Part shown: in pieces, positions 33,392 through 50,384 of the stretch
How the letters are laid out: every line of letters starts with the position of its first letter
Position numbering within the stretch: position 1 is the stretch's first letter
Source: Armatimonadota bacterium
GTDB lineage: Bacteria > Armatimonadota > Fimbriimonadia > Fimbriimonadales > Fimbriimonadaceae
DNA length: 64,000 nt
Reading direction: 5' to 3'
Assembly (NCBI GenBank): GCA_016223145.1
Contig: JACRPN010000008.1
Location: 119,179-183,178, forward strand
Notes under the pieces: model-generated
Seen by the model: only the letters and a program-made list of their open reading frames with translations
Database searches by the model: none
Told to the model about the DNA's origin: nothing
Translations under genes and position numbers: made by a program

Positions 33392-33502
33392 CCCTAAAAA
33401 GGGCTTCAAGGACGTTCACGCGGCGCTTCGTCCGCGCCCAATGCGGCTGGGATGCCGCCCCATCCGGAACCTAGGTTCCAACCCCGATTTCAAGGCATTG
33501 CC

Positions 33503-36500
33503 ATGGTTCAATATCTGCGAAAAATGTTTGATACATCCAAGAAGGATGTAGAGGCGTTGTATCCGGTCGTCGATCAGATCAATGCGTTCGAGCCCGCCTT
33601 GGAGGGGCTCACCGACGATCAGCTCAGGGCCAAGACCGACGAGTTTCGGGACCGCCTCAAATCCGGCGCGACCCTAGACGACATCCTTCCTGAAGCTTTT
33701 GCCGCCGTTCGCGAAGCCAGCAAGCGCACCCTCGGCATGAGGCACTTCGACGTCCAGATGATGGGCGGCATCGTGCTGCACAACGGCCGCATCTCTGAGA
33801 TGAAGACTGGTGAAGGCAAGACCCTCGTCGCCACGCTCGCAATGTATCTGAACGCCATCGATGGCCAGGGCTCGCACCTTGTCACGGTCAACGACTACCT
33901 CGCCCGACGCGACGCCGTCTGGATGGGCCCGATCTACCATGCCCTGGGCCTCACCGTTGGCATCATCCAGGGCCAAAGCGAGGATTCCGACGAACTCGGC
34001 GGCAGCTACCTTTATACGCCCGGCGCCGACGTGGCGGGCGACCCGCGCTACGTCAACCTCGTGCCGTGCGAGCGCCGCCAGGCCTATCTCTGCGACATCG
34101 TCTACGGCACCAACCACGAGTACGGATTCGACTATCTGCGCGACAACATGGCGTTCCAGAAGGAGCATCTCGTGATGCGCCAGCTCAACTTCGCCATCGT
34201 CGACGAGGTGGACTCGATCCTGATCGACGAAGCCCGAACGCCCCACATCATCAGCGGCCCCTCGAACGACGACGTCAGCTACTACAAGATGATCGATGAA
34301 GTGGTCAAGAAGCTGCAGCCGGAGATTCACTTTACGGCGCAGAAGAAGGACCACCAGGTCTCCATGACCGAAGAGGGCATGGACTACGTGGAAGAGCTGA
34401 TGGACGTGGACAACATGGCCAACGACCCCAAGCTCATGCACCACGTGAACGCGGGCGTGAAGGCCTATGCGCTCTTCGATAAGGACGTGGACTACGTCGT
34501 ACGCGGAAGGGAAGTGGTGCTCGTGGACGACAACACCGGCCGCCTGATGTTCGGCCGCCGGCTGTCGGACGGCCTGCACCAGGCGCTCGAAGCGAAAGAG
34601 GGTGTTCCCGTTCAACGAGAGAGCCAAACCGTCGCGGTCATCACCTTCCAGAACCTATTCCGCCTCTACGACAAGCTCGCCGGCATGACCGGTACCGCCA
34701 AGACGGAAGAGGACGAGTTTCGAAAGATCTATGGCCTGGACGTGGTCACCATCCCCACGCACCGCGACATGATCCGAACGGACCACCCGGACATCATTTA
34801 CAAGACGCTCGAAGCCAAGTTCCGGGGCATTGCCTGGGAGATCATGCGGCTGTTCGTCAAGCAGCAGCCGGTGCTCGTGGGCACGCGCTCGATCGAGATG
34901 TCGGAACGCGTTTCGGCCCGGCTGACCAGCGAAATGCTGCAAAAGATGGTGCTCGCTTCCAAGCTGCGCTGGCATTCCGAGGTCAAGAAGGACATGCCGA
35001 AAGACCTCAAGACGGATGCGGCCAAGCTGATCGAGCAAGACCTTGATGCGGTTTCGGTTAAGGAGTTTGGCGCGATCCTGGTCAAGATGGGCCAGAGCGG
35101 CGACCCTCTATCCGCCGAGGTCATGGATTGGGCGCTGAAAGAGTTCGAGCTCACCTCGGACAACAAGGAGTATTGGGACGAGGCGATCAGAAAGGGCATC
35201 CCGCACAGCGTTTTGAACGCGAAGTTCCACGAGAGGGAGGCGTTGGTCATCGCCGAAGCGGGCCGGAAGGGCCAGATTACGATCGCCACCAACATGGCAG
35301 GTCGAGGCGTAGACATTCTGCTGGGTGGGCGCATCTTCGACGAGCAGATCGACCTCGCTCGCAAATCGAAGGGCGACGTCGAACTCGAATCGGGCGCCGG
35401 TGGCGGGTTCCGACGTGGCGGCAACACCGAGCGCGCAGCCCCCCCGCTTCCCCTGGATGACCAAGAGCGGCGAGGCCTCGCCGAAGAGGTCCGCAAGCTC
35501 GGCGGACTCTACATTCTGGGCACCGAGCGCCACGAGGCCAGGCGCATCGACAACCAGCTTCGCGGCCGATCGGGCCGTCAGGGCGACCCGGGCGAGAGTC
35601 GGTTCTTCGTATCGCTGGAAGACATGCTCTGGAAGATCTTCAACGCGAACATGCTCGAAAATCCGCTGCTGAAGGCTTGGCCGCCGATGGAGCAGGTGGA
35701 CGCCAAGTTCCTATCCGGAATGATCCGCAAAACCCAAGAAAGGATCGAGCATCACTTCTTCGAGGCTCGAAAGCACGTGTTGGAGTACGACGACGTGCTG
35801 AACGCCCAGCGCGAGAAAATCTACTCGATGCGCCGCGACATCCTGATGGGCAAGCATGTGCGTGAAGACCTTCAGGGCTACATCGACCAGATGGTCGTCG
35901 ACGTGGTGCACGGCTGCTTCACGTACGATGAGAATCAGGCGCGCCAAGCATTCGACTTCGACACGCTCTATTCGGAGCTCAACGAGCTTTTCCCACTCGT
36001 GGACTACGCAACCGTGGACGAGCTGAAGGAATTGGGGCCGGGCGACGCCTTGGACCGGCGTTGCATCGAACTGGCGCACCAGGCCTATGAAGACAAGGCC
36101 AACAGCCTTGGCGAAGACGTCATGGGCTGGTTAGAGCAGCACGTCATGCTTCGCGCTGTGAATGACAAGTGGATGGACCACCTGCAGATGGTGGACTACA
36201 TTCGCGAGGGCATCGGCCTGCGCGGCTACGGCCAGGTGGACCCGCTGATCGCCTACAAGCGCGAGACGTTCGACCTCTTCGAGGGCACGCTCAGACAGAT
36301 CAGGGAGCAGGCGGTTCGAATGATCTATCACGCGAACGTGCAGGTCAACCAAGAGCAGCCCCAACAGCCGCAGGAAGCTGCGCCGCAGATGCAACGCATC
36401 GACGATGCAGACCTCGCAGCCGGCGACGTGGCTCAAGCCATCACCGGATCTCGCAGCGTAGCCGCCGGTTCCATGCCGGCGACGAGCGGCGACCTTTCGC

Positions 36501-36607
36501 GGGTTGACTGGAAGAAGGTCGGCCGGAACGACCCTTGCCCCTGCGGCAGCGGAAAGAAGTTCAAGGCCTGTCACTACCACGAGATGCGGTCGCAGGGCAT
36601 CATCTAG
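33503..36607 (+). CDS. secA: protein translocase ATPase SecA
   Basis: SecA drives preproteins through SecYEG using ATP. ATG 33503 gives a 1034-residue protein starting MVQYLRKMFDTSKKDVEALY. It contains Walker A MKTGEGKTLVATLAMYLN, the DEVDSILIDEARTPHIISGP motor and preprotein-crosslinking region, RESQTVAVITFQNLFRLYDK, AGRGVDILLGG, and GTERHEARRIDNQLRGRSGR (helicase motif VI area). The C-terminal SEC-C zinc domain DPCPCGSGKKFKACH binds SecB or ribosomes in homologues. The frame is unbroken, but residues about 986-993 in the linker before SEC-C are encoded by a family B repeat. A strong hairpin follows the stop. Confidence 0.97.
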   Translation: MVQYLRKMFDTSKKDVEALYPVVDQINAFEPALEGLTDDQLRAKTDEFRDRLKSGATLDDILPEAFAAVREASKRTLGMRHFDVQMMGGIVLHNGRISEMKTGEGKTLVATLAMYLNAIDGQGSHLVTVNDYLARRDAVWMGPIYHALGLTVGIIQGQSEDSDELGGSYLYTPGADVAGDPRYVNLVPCERRQAYLCDIVYGTNHEYGFDYLRDNMAFQKEHLVMRQLNFAIVDEVDSILIDEARTPHIISGPSNDDVSYYKMIDEVVKKLQPEIHFTAQKKDHQVSMTEEGMDYVEELMDVDNMANDPKLMHHVNAGVKAYALFDKDVDYVVRGREVVLVDDNTGRLMFGRRLSDGLHQALEAKEGVPVQRESQTVAVITFQNLFRLYDKLAGMTGTAKTEEDEFRKIYGLDVVTIPTHRDMIRTDHPDIIYKTLEAKFRGIAWEIMRLFVKQQPVLVGTRSIEMSERVSARLTSEMLQKMVLASKLRWHSEVKKDMPKDLKTDAAKLIEQDLDAVSVKEFGAILVKMGQSGDPLSAEVMDWALKEFELTSDNKEYWDEAIRKGIPHSVLNAKFHEREALVIAEAGRKGQITIATNMAGRGVDILLGGRIFDEQIDLARKSKGDVELESGAGGGFRRGGNTERAAPPLPLDDQERRGLAEEVRKLGGLYILGTERHEARRIDNQLRGRSGRQGDPGESRFFVSLEDMLWKIFNANMLENPLLKAWPPMEQVDAKFLSGMIRKTQERIEHHFFEARKHVLEYDDVLNAQREKIYSMRRDILMGKHVREDLQGYIDQMVVDVVHGCFTYDENQARQAFDFDTLYSELNELFPLVDYATVDELKELGPGDALDRRCIELAHQAYEDKANSLGEDVMGWLEQHVMLRAVNDKWMDHLQMVDYIREGIGLRGYGQVDPLIAYKRETFDLFEGTLRQIREQAVRMIYHANVQVNQEQPQQPQEAAPQMQRIDDADLAAGDVAQAITGSRSVAAGSMPATSGDLSRVDWKKVGRNDPCPCGSGKKFKACHYHEMRSQGII
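36458..36481 (-). repeat. family B palindromic repeat inside secA
   Basis: GTAGCCGCCGGTTCCATGCC then GGCG differs by one base from copies at 25055 and 25119. It is in frame and encodes VAAGSMPA in the flexible linker between the helical scaffold and the zinc domain. Confidence 0.85.
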
Positions 36608-46272: not shown

Positions 46273-47238
46273 TCAGGGCTTGGCGACCCAGCCGTACTCC
46301 ACCAGCTGCCGGTCAAAGGTGCCGTCGTCATAGAGGTCGAGGAGCGCATAGGCCGGCTTGAATTCCTGGTTCGGCCCGGTCCACCATCCCCCGCTCACCG
46401 CGCCATTGCAGGCGTAAGTCACTCCCAGATACTCCAGACGGTCGCCGAGGTGGATGTGCCCGCTCACACAGAGCTTGACGTTGGGGTGCTTGGCGAAGAG
46501 GTCTTTGAGCGGCTTCGCGTCGGCATGCATCGAGGAAATGGAAACGGAGTGGGCGCCGTCTTTGACCACATTGCTGCCAAGGAGTGTGCACACCGCTGCA
46601 ATAGGGATGTGTGAGACGACCAGAACGGGACGAGACAAGGGGATAGTCGCCAGGTCGGCCTTCAGCCAGTCGAACTGCTCCGGGTCCAGTCCCGCCACAT
46701 AGCCGTTGCCCTCTTTGGGCTGGATGCTGTCGAGGATGACGAAGTGCCACGGCCCCTTGTCGAAGCTGTGATAGGACCGCTCGTATTCCAGGACGTCGAG
46801 GGTGTAACGCTTGCCAAAGAGCGGGTCGGTTTTGAATCGCTCGCGAGCGCCCCAGCCAAAGACGTCATGGTTGCCAAAGCAGTAGTGGCTTTCGACGTGG
46901 CTGTTGGCCTTGTGCACGCTCTTGAACAGGTCCCACTGAAGTTTCACCCGGTCACGGTCGGCGGTGAGCGCGTCCATGATGTTGTCGCCGCCATAGACCA
47001 CGAGGTCCGGCTTCTGCTCCATCGCGTGCTTCAAGCACATTTCCATGCCCTCTGCGGCATGAAGCTCAGGTTGGAGGTGGATGTCGGTGAGGTGCGCCAC
47101 CCGCAAGGATCGTTTGCGTTGGGGCGAACGGCCGAACTGGGCCAGGGAATTCGCTGGAGTCAGGGCGCAAAGTGCGCCCGCGCCCGCAACTTTCAAGAAG
47201 GAGCGTCTGCTCGAAGGGGATTGTCGGCCGTCTTTCAC
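46273..47238 (-). CDS. Tat-exported calcineurin-like metallophosphoesterase
   Basis: The 321-residue protein begins with a twin-arginine signal (SSRRSFLKVAGAGALCALTP), so it is exported folded, probably with its metals. All metallophosphoesterase motifs are present in order: AHLTDIHLQ (D-x-H), VYGGDNI (GDN), FGNHDVFGW (GNHD), SHIPIAA and SGHIHLGD (GHxH). Such enzymes hydrolyse phosphomonoesters or diesters with two metal ions. The substrate is unknown. Its start lies next to the protein-free region at 47.2-48.4 kb. Confidence 0.92.
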   Translation of the reverse strand: MKDGRQSPSSRRSFLKVAGAGALCALTPANSLAQFGRSPQRKRSLRVAHLTDIHLQPELHAAEGMEMCLKHAMEQKPDLVVYGGDNIMDALTADRDRVKLQWDLFKSVHKANSHVESHYCFGNHDVFGWGARERFKTDPLFGKRYTLDVLEYERSYHSFDKGPWHFVILDSIQPKEGNGYVAGLDPEQFDWLKADLATIPLSRPVLVVSHIPIAAVCTLLGSNVVKDGAHSVSISSMHADAKPLKDLFAKHPNVKLCVSGHIHLGDRLEYLGVTYACNGAVSGGWWTGPNQEFKPAYALLDLYDDGTFDRQLVEYGWVAKP

Positions 47239-47439
47239 GGCATCGAATTCGACCGTGCTCCCTCCTTTCCCTTTTCAGGGAAGAAGGAGAACAGTCGTTG
47301 GAACAGCCCTAGACTTTGGCTGCGCCTCGGCCACTCTTTGACGGCATTATCGTTTCGCCGTTTTGTCCGCCTGGCCCGTTGTGAGCCGTAACCAGGCAAG
47401 CGCCTCAGCCGCCGACTTTTTTCAGAGGTTCGGCTCCCT

Positions 47440-48240
47440 CTATCGCACAAAACTGTTATGCCGCTTCCGACGGCCGAGGGCAGCTAACCCCCGCTGAATC
47501 CCGGCTACGGGAAACACCGCGCTTTCACGACTCTACGTCAGGGACCTTGCGAGATCCCTCACGCTCCTCCCTGGCCGAAGCCGGAGGAAAAAGGCTGCTT
47601 TCATCTTGTGCGGGCCGCTCTTTCGCTTTGCAGGCGAATCCGGACTCGAACCGGAGACCTATCGCTTATTAGGCGACTGCTCTATCCACTGAGCTATTCA
47701 CATGTTGCTCGAACGACGCGCGCGGCCTGGCGTTCCGTACCTTGTTAGGCACAAAATGCGCCGCGCCATTCTGCCCTTCCCCGTACCGCGGGTACCGGAC
47801 GATCGTCCCGGACGGCGTGCCCCGATGTCATCGGAACCCGAAACCCGAGCGACTGGAATGAAGCTCTACCGGCGGAACGGTCGAACAAACATCCCTACTC
47901 TTCGGCTCTCACCCCTGAGCCCTTCGCGGGAGCCTTGCGAGGAGCGATCCTCGCGCGGACCTCTGCACTTGCCGTCGGTCCTAAGCTCCGGCCTTCAGGA
48001 TCAACCCCCGACTTGCGGTTCGGAGGTCTGAGGAGCCTCAGCTTGCATAGCGGTCCCCACCTTGCGATGAGGCGGCCGGGATGAGCGCCCGACCCTTTCA
48101 CGACGTTACCGCCGCTTACCCTTAGCCTGGGCCATGCCCCAGGGCGCTTCCGACGAGAGGTCCGAAGACCACCCATCCGAAGCGGCAAGAATGTTTGACG
48201 AGGCTTGTGCGATTTTGTTCACGACGAATTTCAAGAATGT
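47440..48240 (-). ncRNA. candidate large structured RNA (novel class), minus strand
   Basis: The 1.1 kb between two divergent genes contains no credible protein but is packed with compact hairpins that read best on the minus strand. Two have the stable C(UUCG)G loop: 48159-48170 (GGTC-TTCG-GACC) and 47566-47587 (CCTCCGGC-TTCG-GCC...GGAGG). A 28-base hairpin at 47536-47563 has ten Watson-Crick or wobble pairs and a UCGCAA loop. Others lie at 48126-48143, 48028-48041, 47939-47952, 47904-47921 and 47783-47834. TCGCAAGG occurs three times and GTCGTGAAAG twice on this strand. A complete tRNA cloverleaf is embedded at 47631-47703. The ends are not defined. It is not rRNA, RNase P RNA or tmRNA by motif. 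The layout recalls GOLLD or ROOL giant RNAs, which also associate with tRNAs. Confidence 0.45.
47631..47703 (-). tRNA. tRNA-like cloverleaf, anticodon AAU (Ile?), atypical
   Basis: On the minus strand all four arms form: acceptor ATGTGAA/TTCGCCT (one U-C mismatch at pair 2-71), D arm GCTC-AGTGGATA-GAGC, anticodon arm GTCGC-CTAATAA-GCGAT, variable loop AGGTC, T arm TCCGG-TTCGAGT-CCGGA. The anticodon reads AAU, where bacteria normally use GAU for isoleucine. CCA is not encoded and the discriminator is G. The structure is complete, but the odd anticodon, the acceptor mismatch and its place within a hairpin-rich region suggest a tRNA-like domain or degenerate tRNA rather than a standard decoding tRNA. 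Confidence 0.65.
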
Positions 48241-48374: not shown

Positions 48375-50384
48375 ATGAATCGAACAGTCAAATTCCTTGG
48401 CGGGTGCCTCCTCATCCTGTCGCTTGCGAATGCCGGATTTTCCCAATCGAAGCTGCTGACGCGCGACACGTTCTTCGAGATGGAATCGGTCGGCAGCCCG
48501 CAGATCTCCCCCGACGGCACCAGCGTCCTGTTTACGCGAACCGGCATTGACAAAGTCAAGGACTCCTCGGCGAGCAACCTCTGGATCACCGATGCCAAAG
48601 GCGAGCGAACCCGGCAGCTGACGGAGGGCGGCTGGCGGGACAGCGGCCCTGTCTGGTCGCCCGATGGCAAGCGCATCGCGTTCCTCTCGGATCGGGACGG
48701 CACGACCCAGCTTTATGTAATGTGGCTGGACACGCGCGAGATCGCCAAGCTCACCAACAGCGAACGCACGCCGGGCGGCGTGGTCTGGTCGCCAGACGGC
48801 AGGCAACTCGCCTACACCCAGTTTGAGCCCGACCGCGATCCGATCCTGGCGATCAAGCTGCCCGAGCGGCCCGCCGGGGCCACATGGGCGAAACCTCCGA
48901 CGCTGGTGAATCGGCTCTCCTGGGGGCAAGATGGCGTTGGGCCAACTCAACCGGGAACGAGCCAGATCTATGTGCTCGACGCCATTCTTGGCGGCACGCC
49001 ACGCAAGGTAACGAGCGGGGCTTTCTCCTTCGGTTCGCCAAGTTGGTCCAAGGACGGCAAGACCCTGTTCGCCTCGGCCACCAAGGTGCCGGACGATGAC
49101 TGGACTAAGGGAGCGGGCGAGATCTATGCCATCGAGGCACAGACCGGGGCGATGTCCGCGCTCACCGATCGCAAGGGCCCCGACAGCGGTCCCACGGTCT
49201 CCCGGGACGGCAAATGGATCGCCTACACGGGATTCGATCACAAGGACTTCACGAGCCACCTTTCGAGCCTTTACTTGATGGACACGAAAGGCGCCGGGAA
49301 GAAGGTGCTCGCCACAGGCCTGCCCAACTCACCGTCAGGGGCGACGTGGGCGCCCGACAGTTCGGGCGTTTACTTCCTGATGGGCAAAGAGGGCAGCACC
49401 AACCTCTGGTTCGTCTCGCTCGAGGGCAAGATCTCGGAGATCACCAAGGGTGTCCAGCAGCTCGGAGGTTTTTCGCTCTCCGACAATGGAACCGTCGCGA
49501 CGGTCCGTTCGACCTTCACGAATCCCGGAGTCTTGAGCGTGTTCAGCCTTCGGCGTGCGAGCGATATGCTGGAGTTGGTCGACGTCAACAAGGACGTGCT
49601 GTCGGGGGTCAGTCTCTCTACGGCGGAGGAGCTTTGGGCGACCTCGAAAGACGGCCTGAAAGTTCAAGGCTGGCTCGTCAAGCCCGCCAATTATCAGGAA
49701 GGGAAGAAGTTCCCGCTGGTGCTCTGGATTCACGGGGGGCCTTGGTCGATGTACGGCATCGGCTGGAGTTGGCCGTTCCAGAACTGGGCCGCAGAGGGCT
49801 ACGGCGTCCTCTTTACGAACCCACGCGGCAGCACGGGCTACGGCCAGGACTTCGTGAACGGCATCCAATACAGCTATCCGGGCAAGGACTATGACGACCT
49901 GATGGCCTGTGTGGACGCGGCCGTGGCGAAGGGATGGGTCGACCCAAAGAACCTCTTCGTCTGCGGGGGGAGCGGGGGCGGGTGCCTCACCGCCTGGATT
50001 GTAGGGCACACCGACCGGTTCGCCGGGGCGTGCGCGATGCGCCCGGTGATTGACTGGATCTCCTTCAACGGGACCACCGACGGAGGACGGTTCTGGTACG
50101 ACCAGTTCGAGAAGCTGCCCTGGGAGGACCCCACGGACCATCTGAAGCGCTCGCCGCTCACGTACGTCAGCAACGTGGTGACGCCGACGATGGTGATGAC
50201 CGGCGAGGCCGACCTGAGGACGCCGATCTCGCAGAGCGAGGAGTTCTATCGGGCAATGAAACTCTTGAAGAAGGACACGCTGCTGGTGCGGATGCCTGAT
50301 GAGTTCCACGGCTGGCGCCGGCCGAGCCATCAATTGATGCAGCAGCTTTATCTGATGGCGTGGTTCGAGAAGCACAAGAGGTGA
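48375..50384 (+). CDS. secreted S9 family peptidase (acylaminoacyl/dipeptidyl peptidase type)
   Basis: The 669-residue protein has a signal peptide (VKFLGGCLLILSLANAGFS). A beta-propeller spans about 40-410 with repeated WSPDGK-type blades (GPVWSPDGKRIAFLSDRDGT, then GGVVWSPDGRQLAYTQ). The C-terminal alpha/beta-hydrolase domain has the nucleophile Ser in VCGGSGGGCLTAWIVGHTDR (usual GGSYGG), the acid Asp in TGEADLRTPI and His in PDEFHGWRRP. Such enzymes cleave short peptides admitted by the propeller. It acts in the periplasm or outside. It is monocistronic; a repeat-rich gap follows. Confidence 0.9.
   Translation: MNRTVKFLGGCLLILSLANAGFSQSKLLTRDTFFEMESVGSPQISPDGTSVLFTRTGIDKVKDSSASNLWITDAKGERTRQLTEGGWRDSGPVWSPDGKRIAFLSDRDGTTQLYVMWLDTREIAKLTNSERTPGGVVWSPDGRQLAYTQFEPDRDPILAIKLPERPAGATWAKPPTLVNRLSWGQDGVGPTQPGTSQIYVLDAILGGTPRKVTSGAFSFGSPSWSKDGKTLFASATKVPDDDWTKGAGEIYAIEAQTGAMSALTDRKGPDSGPTVSRDGKWIAYTGFDHKDFTSHLSSLYLMDTKGAGKKVLATGLPNSPSGATWAPDSSGVYFLMGKEGSTNLWFVSLEGKISEITKGVQQLGGFSLSDNGTVATVRSTFTNPGVLSVFSLRRASDMLELVDVNKDVLSGVSLSTAEELWATSKDGLKVQGWLVKPANYQEGKKFPLVLWIHGGPWSMYGIGWSWPFQNWAAEGYGVLFTNPRGSTGYGQDFVNGIQYSYPGKDYDDLMACVDAAVAKGWVDPKNLFVCGGSGGGCLTAWIVGHTDRFAGACAMRPVIDWISFNGTTDGGRFWYDQFEKLPWEDPTDHLKRSPLTYVSNVVTPTMVMTGEADLRTPISQSEEFYRAMKLLKKDTLLVRMPDEFHGWRRPSHQLMQQLYLMAWFEKHKR

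Follow-up and report, generated by a model that had tools for sequence, protein, structure and literature searches.

Which RNA is encoded at positions 47440-48240 of the window, and what is it doing on a bacterial chromosome? The window is the whole 64,000-nt stretch of Armatimonadota DNA that was analysed. From its letters alone the block had been described as a candidate giant non-coding RNA, rich in structure, that is read from the minus strand and has a tRNA embedded in it; GOLLD was named as a lead, and a new class was suggested. All of these points hold except the last, which is contradicted by a full-length match to the GOLLD model (RF02032) in the window and in seven relatives.

In a permissive Rfam cmscan of the region, the minus strand from 47771 to 47305 aligns with GOLLD over model positions 1-416 of 416, with a score of 103.6 bits and an E-value of 7.4e-28. 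The window copy scores under the RF02032 gathering cut-off of 150 bits, which is a curation threshold and no biological feature. The same holds for all Armatimonadota copies, those of the relatives having 78.7-118.1 bits. Because 103.6 bits is below this curated cut-off, GOLLD is silent at default Rfam settings, and at gathering thresholds the tRNA alone (56.8 bits) is reported in the block. The Rfam check that the preliminary description called for does name the block, at permissive settings only. The E-value of the window copy is far better than the 1e-5 cut-off employed in PMC12286853, and membership of the block in the known GOLLD class is regarded as practically certain. A new giant RNA class unrelated to GOLLD is scarcely credible: the lack of a GOLLD match at the Rfam gathering threshold speaks for it, and it is ruled out by the full-length GOLLD matches in eight genomes, the window genome included, with E-values of 1e-20 to 1e-32; the control genomes gave none. 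The same permissive scan gave no match to ROOL, which is likewise a giant cage-forming RNA often found near tRNAs (PMC12286853) but is distinct in sequence and structure.

The whole gene is taken to be about 883 nt long (48187-47305, minus strand). Homology to the seven relatives starts and stops sharply at 48146 and 47304. The 3′ end is set by the GOLLD model together with this homology, and the likely 5′ end near 48187 is placed by a promoter-like motif. The RNA therefore extends about 135 nt past the low boundary of 47440 given earlier, and the former limits were slightly off. Two domains are distinguished. The GOLLD 3′ domain (47305-47771) has all 416 model positions and carries a tRNA-like domain within its linker. 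The 5′ or cap domain (47772-48187, about 416 nt) is kept in the relatives and covaries strongly; it comprises helices 1 and 3-17 of A1, the majority of them with two-sided changes.

Seven complete chromosomal copies were aligned to assess the structure, and their consensus has 242 pairs. Two-sided changes are found in 112 of these pairs, compared with 51.5 +/- 4.7 in shuffles, and none of 500 shuffles reached as high a number. Paired cells amount to 95.2% vs 83.6% in shuffles; it should be noted that this alignment also supplied the structure, which favours the paired percentage, and that the number of two-sided changes carries more weight. The covariation signal is destroyed when the partner is slid by one to three columns. 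Substitutions are nearly even across codon positions (0.248/0.245/0.286), and indels are mostly of 1-2 nt, most of them frame-breaking. A coding sequence is ruled out by the near absence of codon periodicity and by these indels. Covariation, the lack of codon periodicity and the frame-breaking indels together show that the chromosomal copies are maintained as RNA. Absence of covariation and a conserved protein frame had been named beforehand as observations that would speak against a structured RNA, and neither appeared. The block is non-coding, highly structured and read from the minus strand, as was proposed.

The sequence words pointed out earlier are all present on the minus strand: three of TCGCAAGG (47545-47552, 47933-47940 and 48060-48067), two of GTCGTGAAAG (47522-47531 and 48095-48104), and two closed C(UUCG)G hairpins, GGTCTTCGGACC at 48159-48170 and GGCTTCGGCC at 47573-47582. 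The latter caps a 3′-domain hairpin (helix 26 of A1) that has 9 pairs, 4 of them with two-sided changes, and 100% of cells paired. The former lies in a 5′ hairpin at 48145-48186, outside the counted structure, whose sequence varies among relatives and whose hairpin, judged by eye from the alignment, seems to be kept. The preliminary description could not match the motifs of GOLLD or ROOL. When aligned to the GOLLD consensus, the TCGCAAGG word at 47545-47552 is GOLLD's own CGCAA hairpin loop (helix 27 of A1, 12 pairs, 5 with two-sided changes).

The genes on both sides of the RNA are ordinary chromosomal neighbours. A calcineurin-like phosphoesterase with a Tat signal (46273-47238, minus strand; Pfam PF00149) lies on one side and a prolyl oligopeptidase family S9 peptidase (48375-50384, plus strand; Pfam PF00326 and PF07676) on the other. 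The remaining window neighbours are an ADP-ribosylglycohydrolase, glycosidases, a dehydrogenase and similar genes. Ten window proteins were scanned against PHROGs for phage functions, and gave only metabolic or unassigned matches. The one tRNA call in the whole window is the tRNA inside GOLLD, and there is no tRNA cluster. This differs from the usual GOLLD setting, i.e., a phage or prophage and often nearby tRNA genes. The identifiable genes near GOLLD in four of the relatives (G013, G016, G014 and G051) are likewise ordinary. GOLLD sites differ between genera, and flanking genes are common to the sister pair G013 and G040 only. What is new is that these GOLLDs stand alone amid housekeeping genes, at unrelated chromosomal sites. 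Elsewhere in the window, a 1051-aa protein (33452-36607, plus strand) matches PHROG 32805, whose function is unknown, with an E-value of 6e-242.

Upstream of the RNA is an ECF-sigma-like promoter motif on the minus strand (48222-48197), consisting of GTGAAC (48222-48217), a spacing of 16 nt, and CGTC (48200-48197). GGAACTT (-35) and CGTC (-10) are among the known elements of ECF-sigma promoters (PMC3397946), and the window sequence has the GGAAC-like -35, the CGTC -10 and the 16-17 nt spacing of a predicted ECF-sigma promoter. The arrangement GAAC-N16/17-CGTC is found upstream of six of the eight chromosomal GOLLD copies, the other two having no ECF-like motif. The strict form GGGAAC-N17-CGTCKA occurs at 0-3 sites per genome, and in four genomes one such site is that at GOLLD. 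Since the motif was noticed only after inspection of the alignment, it is counted as good but not conclusive. A scan for a sigma-70 promoter or a simple terminator found none.

Taken as a whole, a cage-type GOLLD that is maintained by the host and carries a non-decoding tRNA-like domain is a somewhat better than even reading of these data. The comparison is with GOLLD env-38, which was solved by cryo-EM as a closed homo-14-mer cage with the linker inside (PMC12286853); GOLLD assembles into such a cage by way of kissing loops. Its 5′ region, structured and less conserved, is of 420 nt, and its linker, at 3′-region positions 77-118, faces the cage interior (PMC12286853). The window RNA resembles it in having the whole 3′-domain model, a total length over 800 nt and a tRNA-bearing linker at the same place (the tRNA is at 3′-region positions 69-141); the 5′ domains, about 416 vs 420 nt, are likened by length. 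Unlike env-38, the window RNA scores under the Rfam cut-off, belongs to a G+C-rich Armatimonadota lineage, stands alone amid host genes, has an ECF-like promoter motif and shows the tRNA-like domain in all copies that were examined.

In published work, GOLLDs are said to be phage- and prophage-encoded (PMC12286853), and the window copy could be a leftover of a decayed prophage, a remnant without host function. A divergent GOLLD in genome G060 does lie within a phage-like island (G060:C5:383001-442500; L050, L131-L132) that has an endolysin, a collagen-like tail fibre, HNH endonucleases, AlaRS and GluRS catalytic fragments and a nicotinate phosphoribosyltransferase. The distribution is also patchy, at unrelated chromosomal sites: full-length GOLLD is found in 8 of 291 genomes of the phylum, including the window genome, all in the one family Fimbriimonadaceae, with an additional copy in G040 that is cut by a contig end, and none in 14 control genomes. 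So patchy a spread is odd for a useful host gene and counts against one. Against a remnant stand a structure kept by compensatory change across genera, the absence of phage genes among the neighbours scanned, a promoter-like motif common to most copies, and a pairwise divergence comparable in magnitude to that of RNase P RNA in these genomes. Such a remnant is considered unlikely.

Movement of GOLLD within the family, on its own or along with a small element, would account for unrelated sites across genera, with flanks common to the sister pair alone; its persistence would then be due to mobility and not to host benefit. An empty site in relatives could not be demonstrated, since genomes of the same genus lack the flanking genes and in the other genomes these are non-adjacent, and this non-adjacency also agrees with mobility. 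On the other hand, there are no terminal repeats around the window RNA, the scanned neighbours include no recombinase, and although GOLLD identities follow those of RNase P RNA only loosely, there is no sign of recent transfer. Mobility is considered unlikely, and somewhat less probable than a remnant. The RNase P RNA gene of the window genome, which lies outside the window (G000:C5:341716-342148, minus strand; L127), has an apparent insert of ~110 nt in the form of a long imperfect inverted repeat. The insert is absent from the seven relatives; the gene is 433 nt long vs 308-322 nt, and its model score is 129 vs about 240-260 bits.

The tRNA-like domain in the linker (47631-47703, minus strand; 47630-47703 by ARAGORN) is a complete cloverleaf with the anticodon AAU, and the full tRNA cloverleaf claimed for this block is real by both ARAGORN and the Rfam tRNA model (56.8 bits). 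It falls in the unpaired stretch of the GOLLD model. The window copy has standard stems, with one acceptor mismatch, and a 7-nt anticodon loop, and CAA replaces CCA. A cloverleaf is found at the same linker site in nine of nine copies, i.e., in all chromosomal copies and in that of G060. The tRNA gathering score is exceeded in six of the seven relatives; the cloverleaf of L051 is seen by manual reading alone, as is the weaker one of G060. The tRNA-bearing linker of GOLLD and the pseudo-tRNA of mycobacterial GOLLD are, like GOLLD itself, already known. The Mycobacterium GOLLD is similar to that of the window in being chromosomal and in having a non-standard tRNA within its gene, but is located in a cluster of 32 tRNAs held to have been acquired horizontally from phage (PMC6582537), whereas the window has no tRNA cluster.

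Could the embedded sequence be a working tRNA-Ile(AAU) gene, with GOLLD as its carrier or precursor and release by RNase P and RNase Z? The cloverleaf is a good one, the copies of G013 and G051 encode CCA after a paired acceptor stem, and published GOLLD linkers sometimes contain tRNAs (PMC12286853). Yet the nine copies display nine different anticodon loops, two of them of 8 nt and two without U33, and T-loops are lost or altered in some copies. The window copy lacks the CCA that is encoded by 44 of 44 distinct host tRNAs, and the host already has a tRNA-Ile(GAU). Furthermore, the tRNA of Mycobacterium GOLLD was called a pseudo-tRNA, and its expression was not detected (PMC6582537). A decoding role is very improbable.

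The stems of the cloverleaf are kept with many two-sided differences among copies in a manual parse. These differences alone do not prove one inherited domain, because the parse is manual and unrelated tRNAs would show differences of the same appearance. Different tRNAs could also have been inserted independently of one another at a tolerant site, the tRNA-like domains being functionless in themselves; none of the copies is a close match to any one host tRNA from which it might have originated. The sisters G013 and G040 differ in the anticodon stem by a compensatory double change of C-G to U-A and in the loop by one inserted base, which fits selection on the fold without selection on decoding.

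For a host-maintained GOLLD, the following sequence of events may be envisaged. GOLLD would have become a gene that stands alone on the chromosome of its bacterial host. Its transcription, on the minus strand, would begin at an ECF-sigma-type promoter near 48.2 kb and reach about 47.3 kb. By homology, the RNA would assemble into a homo-oligomeric cage like the solved 14-mer. As the linker in which the tRNA-like domain sits faces the interior of the cage, many such domains would be displayed inside each cage. There they may serve, with no decoding, as a decoy or holding site for tRNA-recognising partners under envelope or other stress; this capture of partners is a tentative and rather doubtful step. 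Among the cargo that has been suggested for GOLLD are tRNAs or ribosomes. A fuller version, also thought unlikely, is that of a domesticated phage RNA cage, put under a host stress sigma factor and equipped with an interior tRNA mimic, with selection acting on the fold of the mimic but not on its decoding identity, that captures tRNA-binding proteins or ribosomal factors in stress. Studies of GOLLD normally treat it as a phage RNA. Copies that lie on a chromosome and have no phage neighbours make a cage role testable apart from phage growth, and the candidate stress promoter and the interior-facing tRNA-like domain point to tRNA recognition as a cargo hypothesis.

In the literature searched, the coverage of which leaves many journals outside, no report was found of stand-alone, prophage-free Armatimonadota GOLLDs or of an ECF-type GOLLD promoter. 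The E-value cut-off of the 2025 GOLLD survey would catch such sequences if the genomes were included, and they may therefore sit uncommented in its data. A search of IMG/VR with an exact 3′-domain pattern gave no close phage relatives. Phage BLAST matches, among those listed, covered the tRNA segment only. Three IMG/VR contigs recovered with a looser 3′-domain pattern are not GOLLD. Most records that carry the GOLLD pattern bear the names Fimbriimonadaceae, Fimbriimonadia or Chthonomonas. One record, JADZEW010000013.1 (L059), is titled Methanoregulaceae archaeon and carries the GOLLD found in the bacterial family of G013; it is probably a mislabelled bin.
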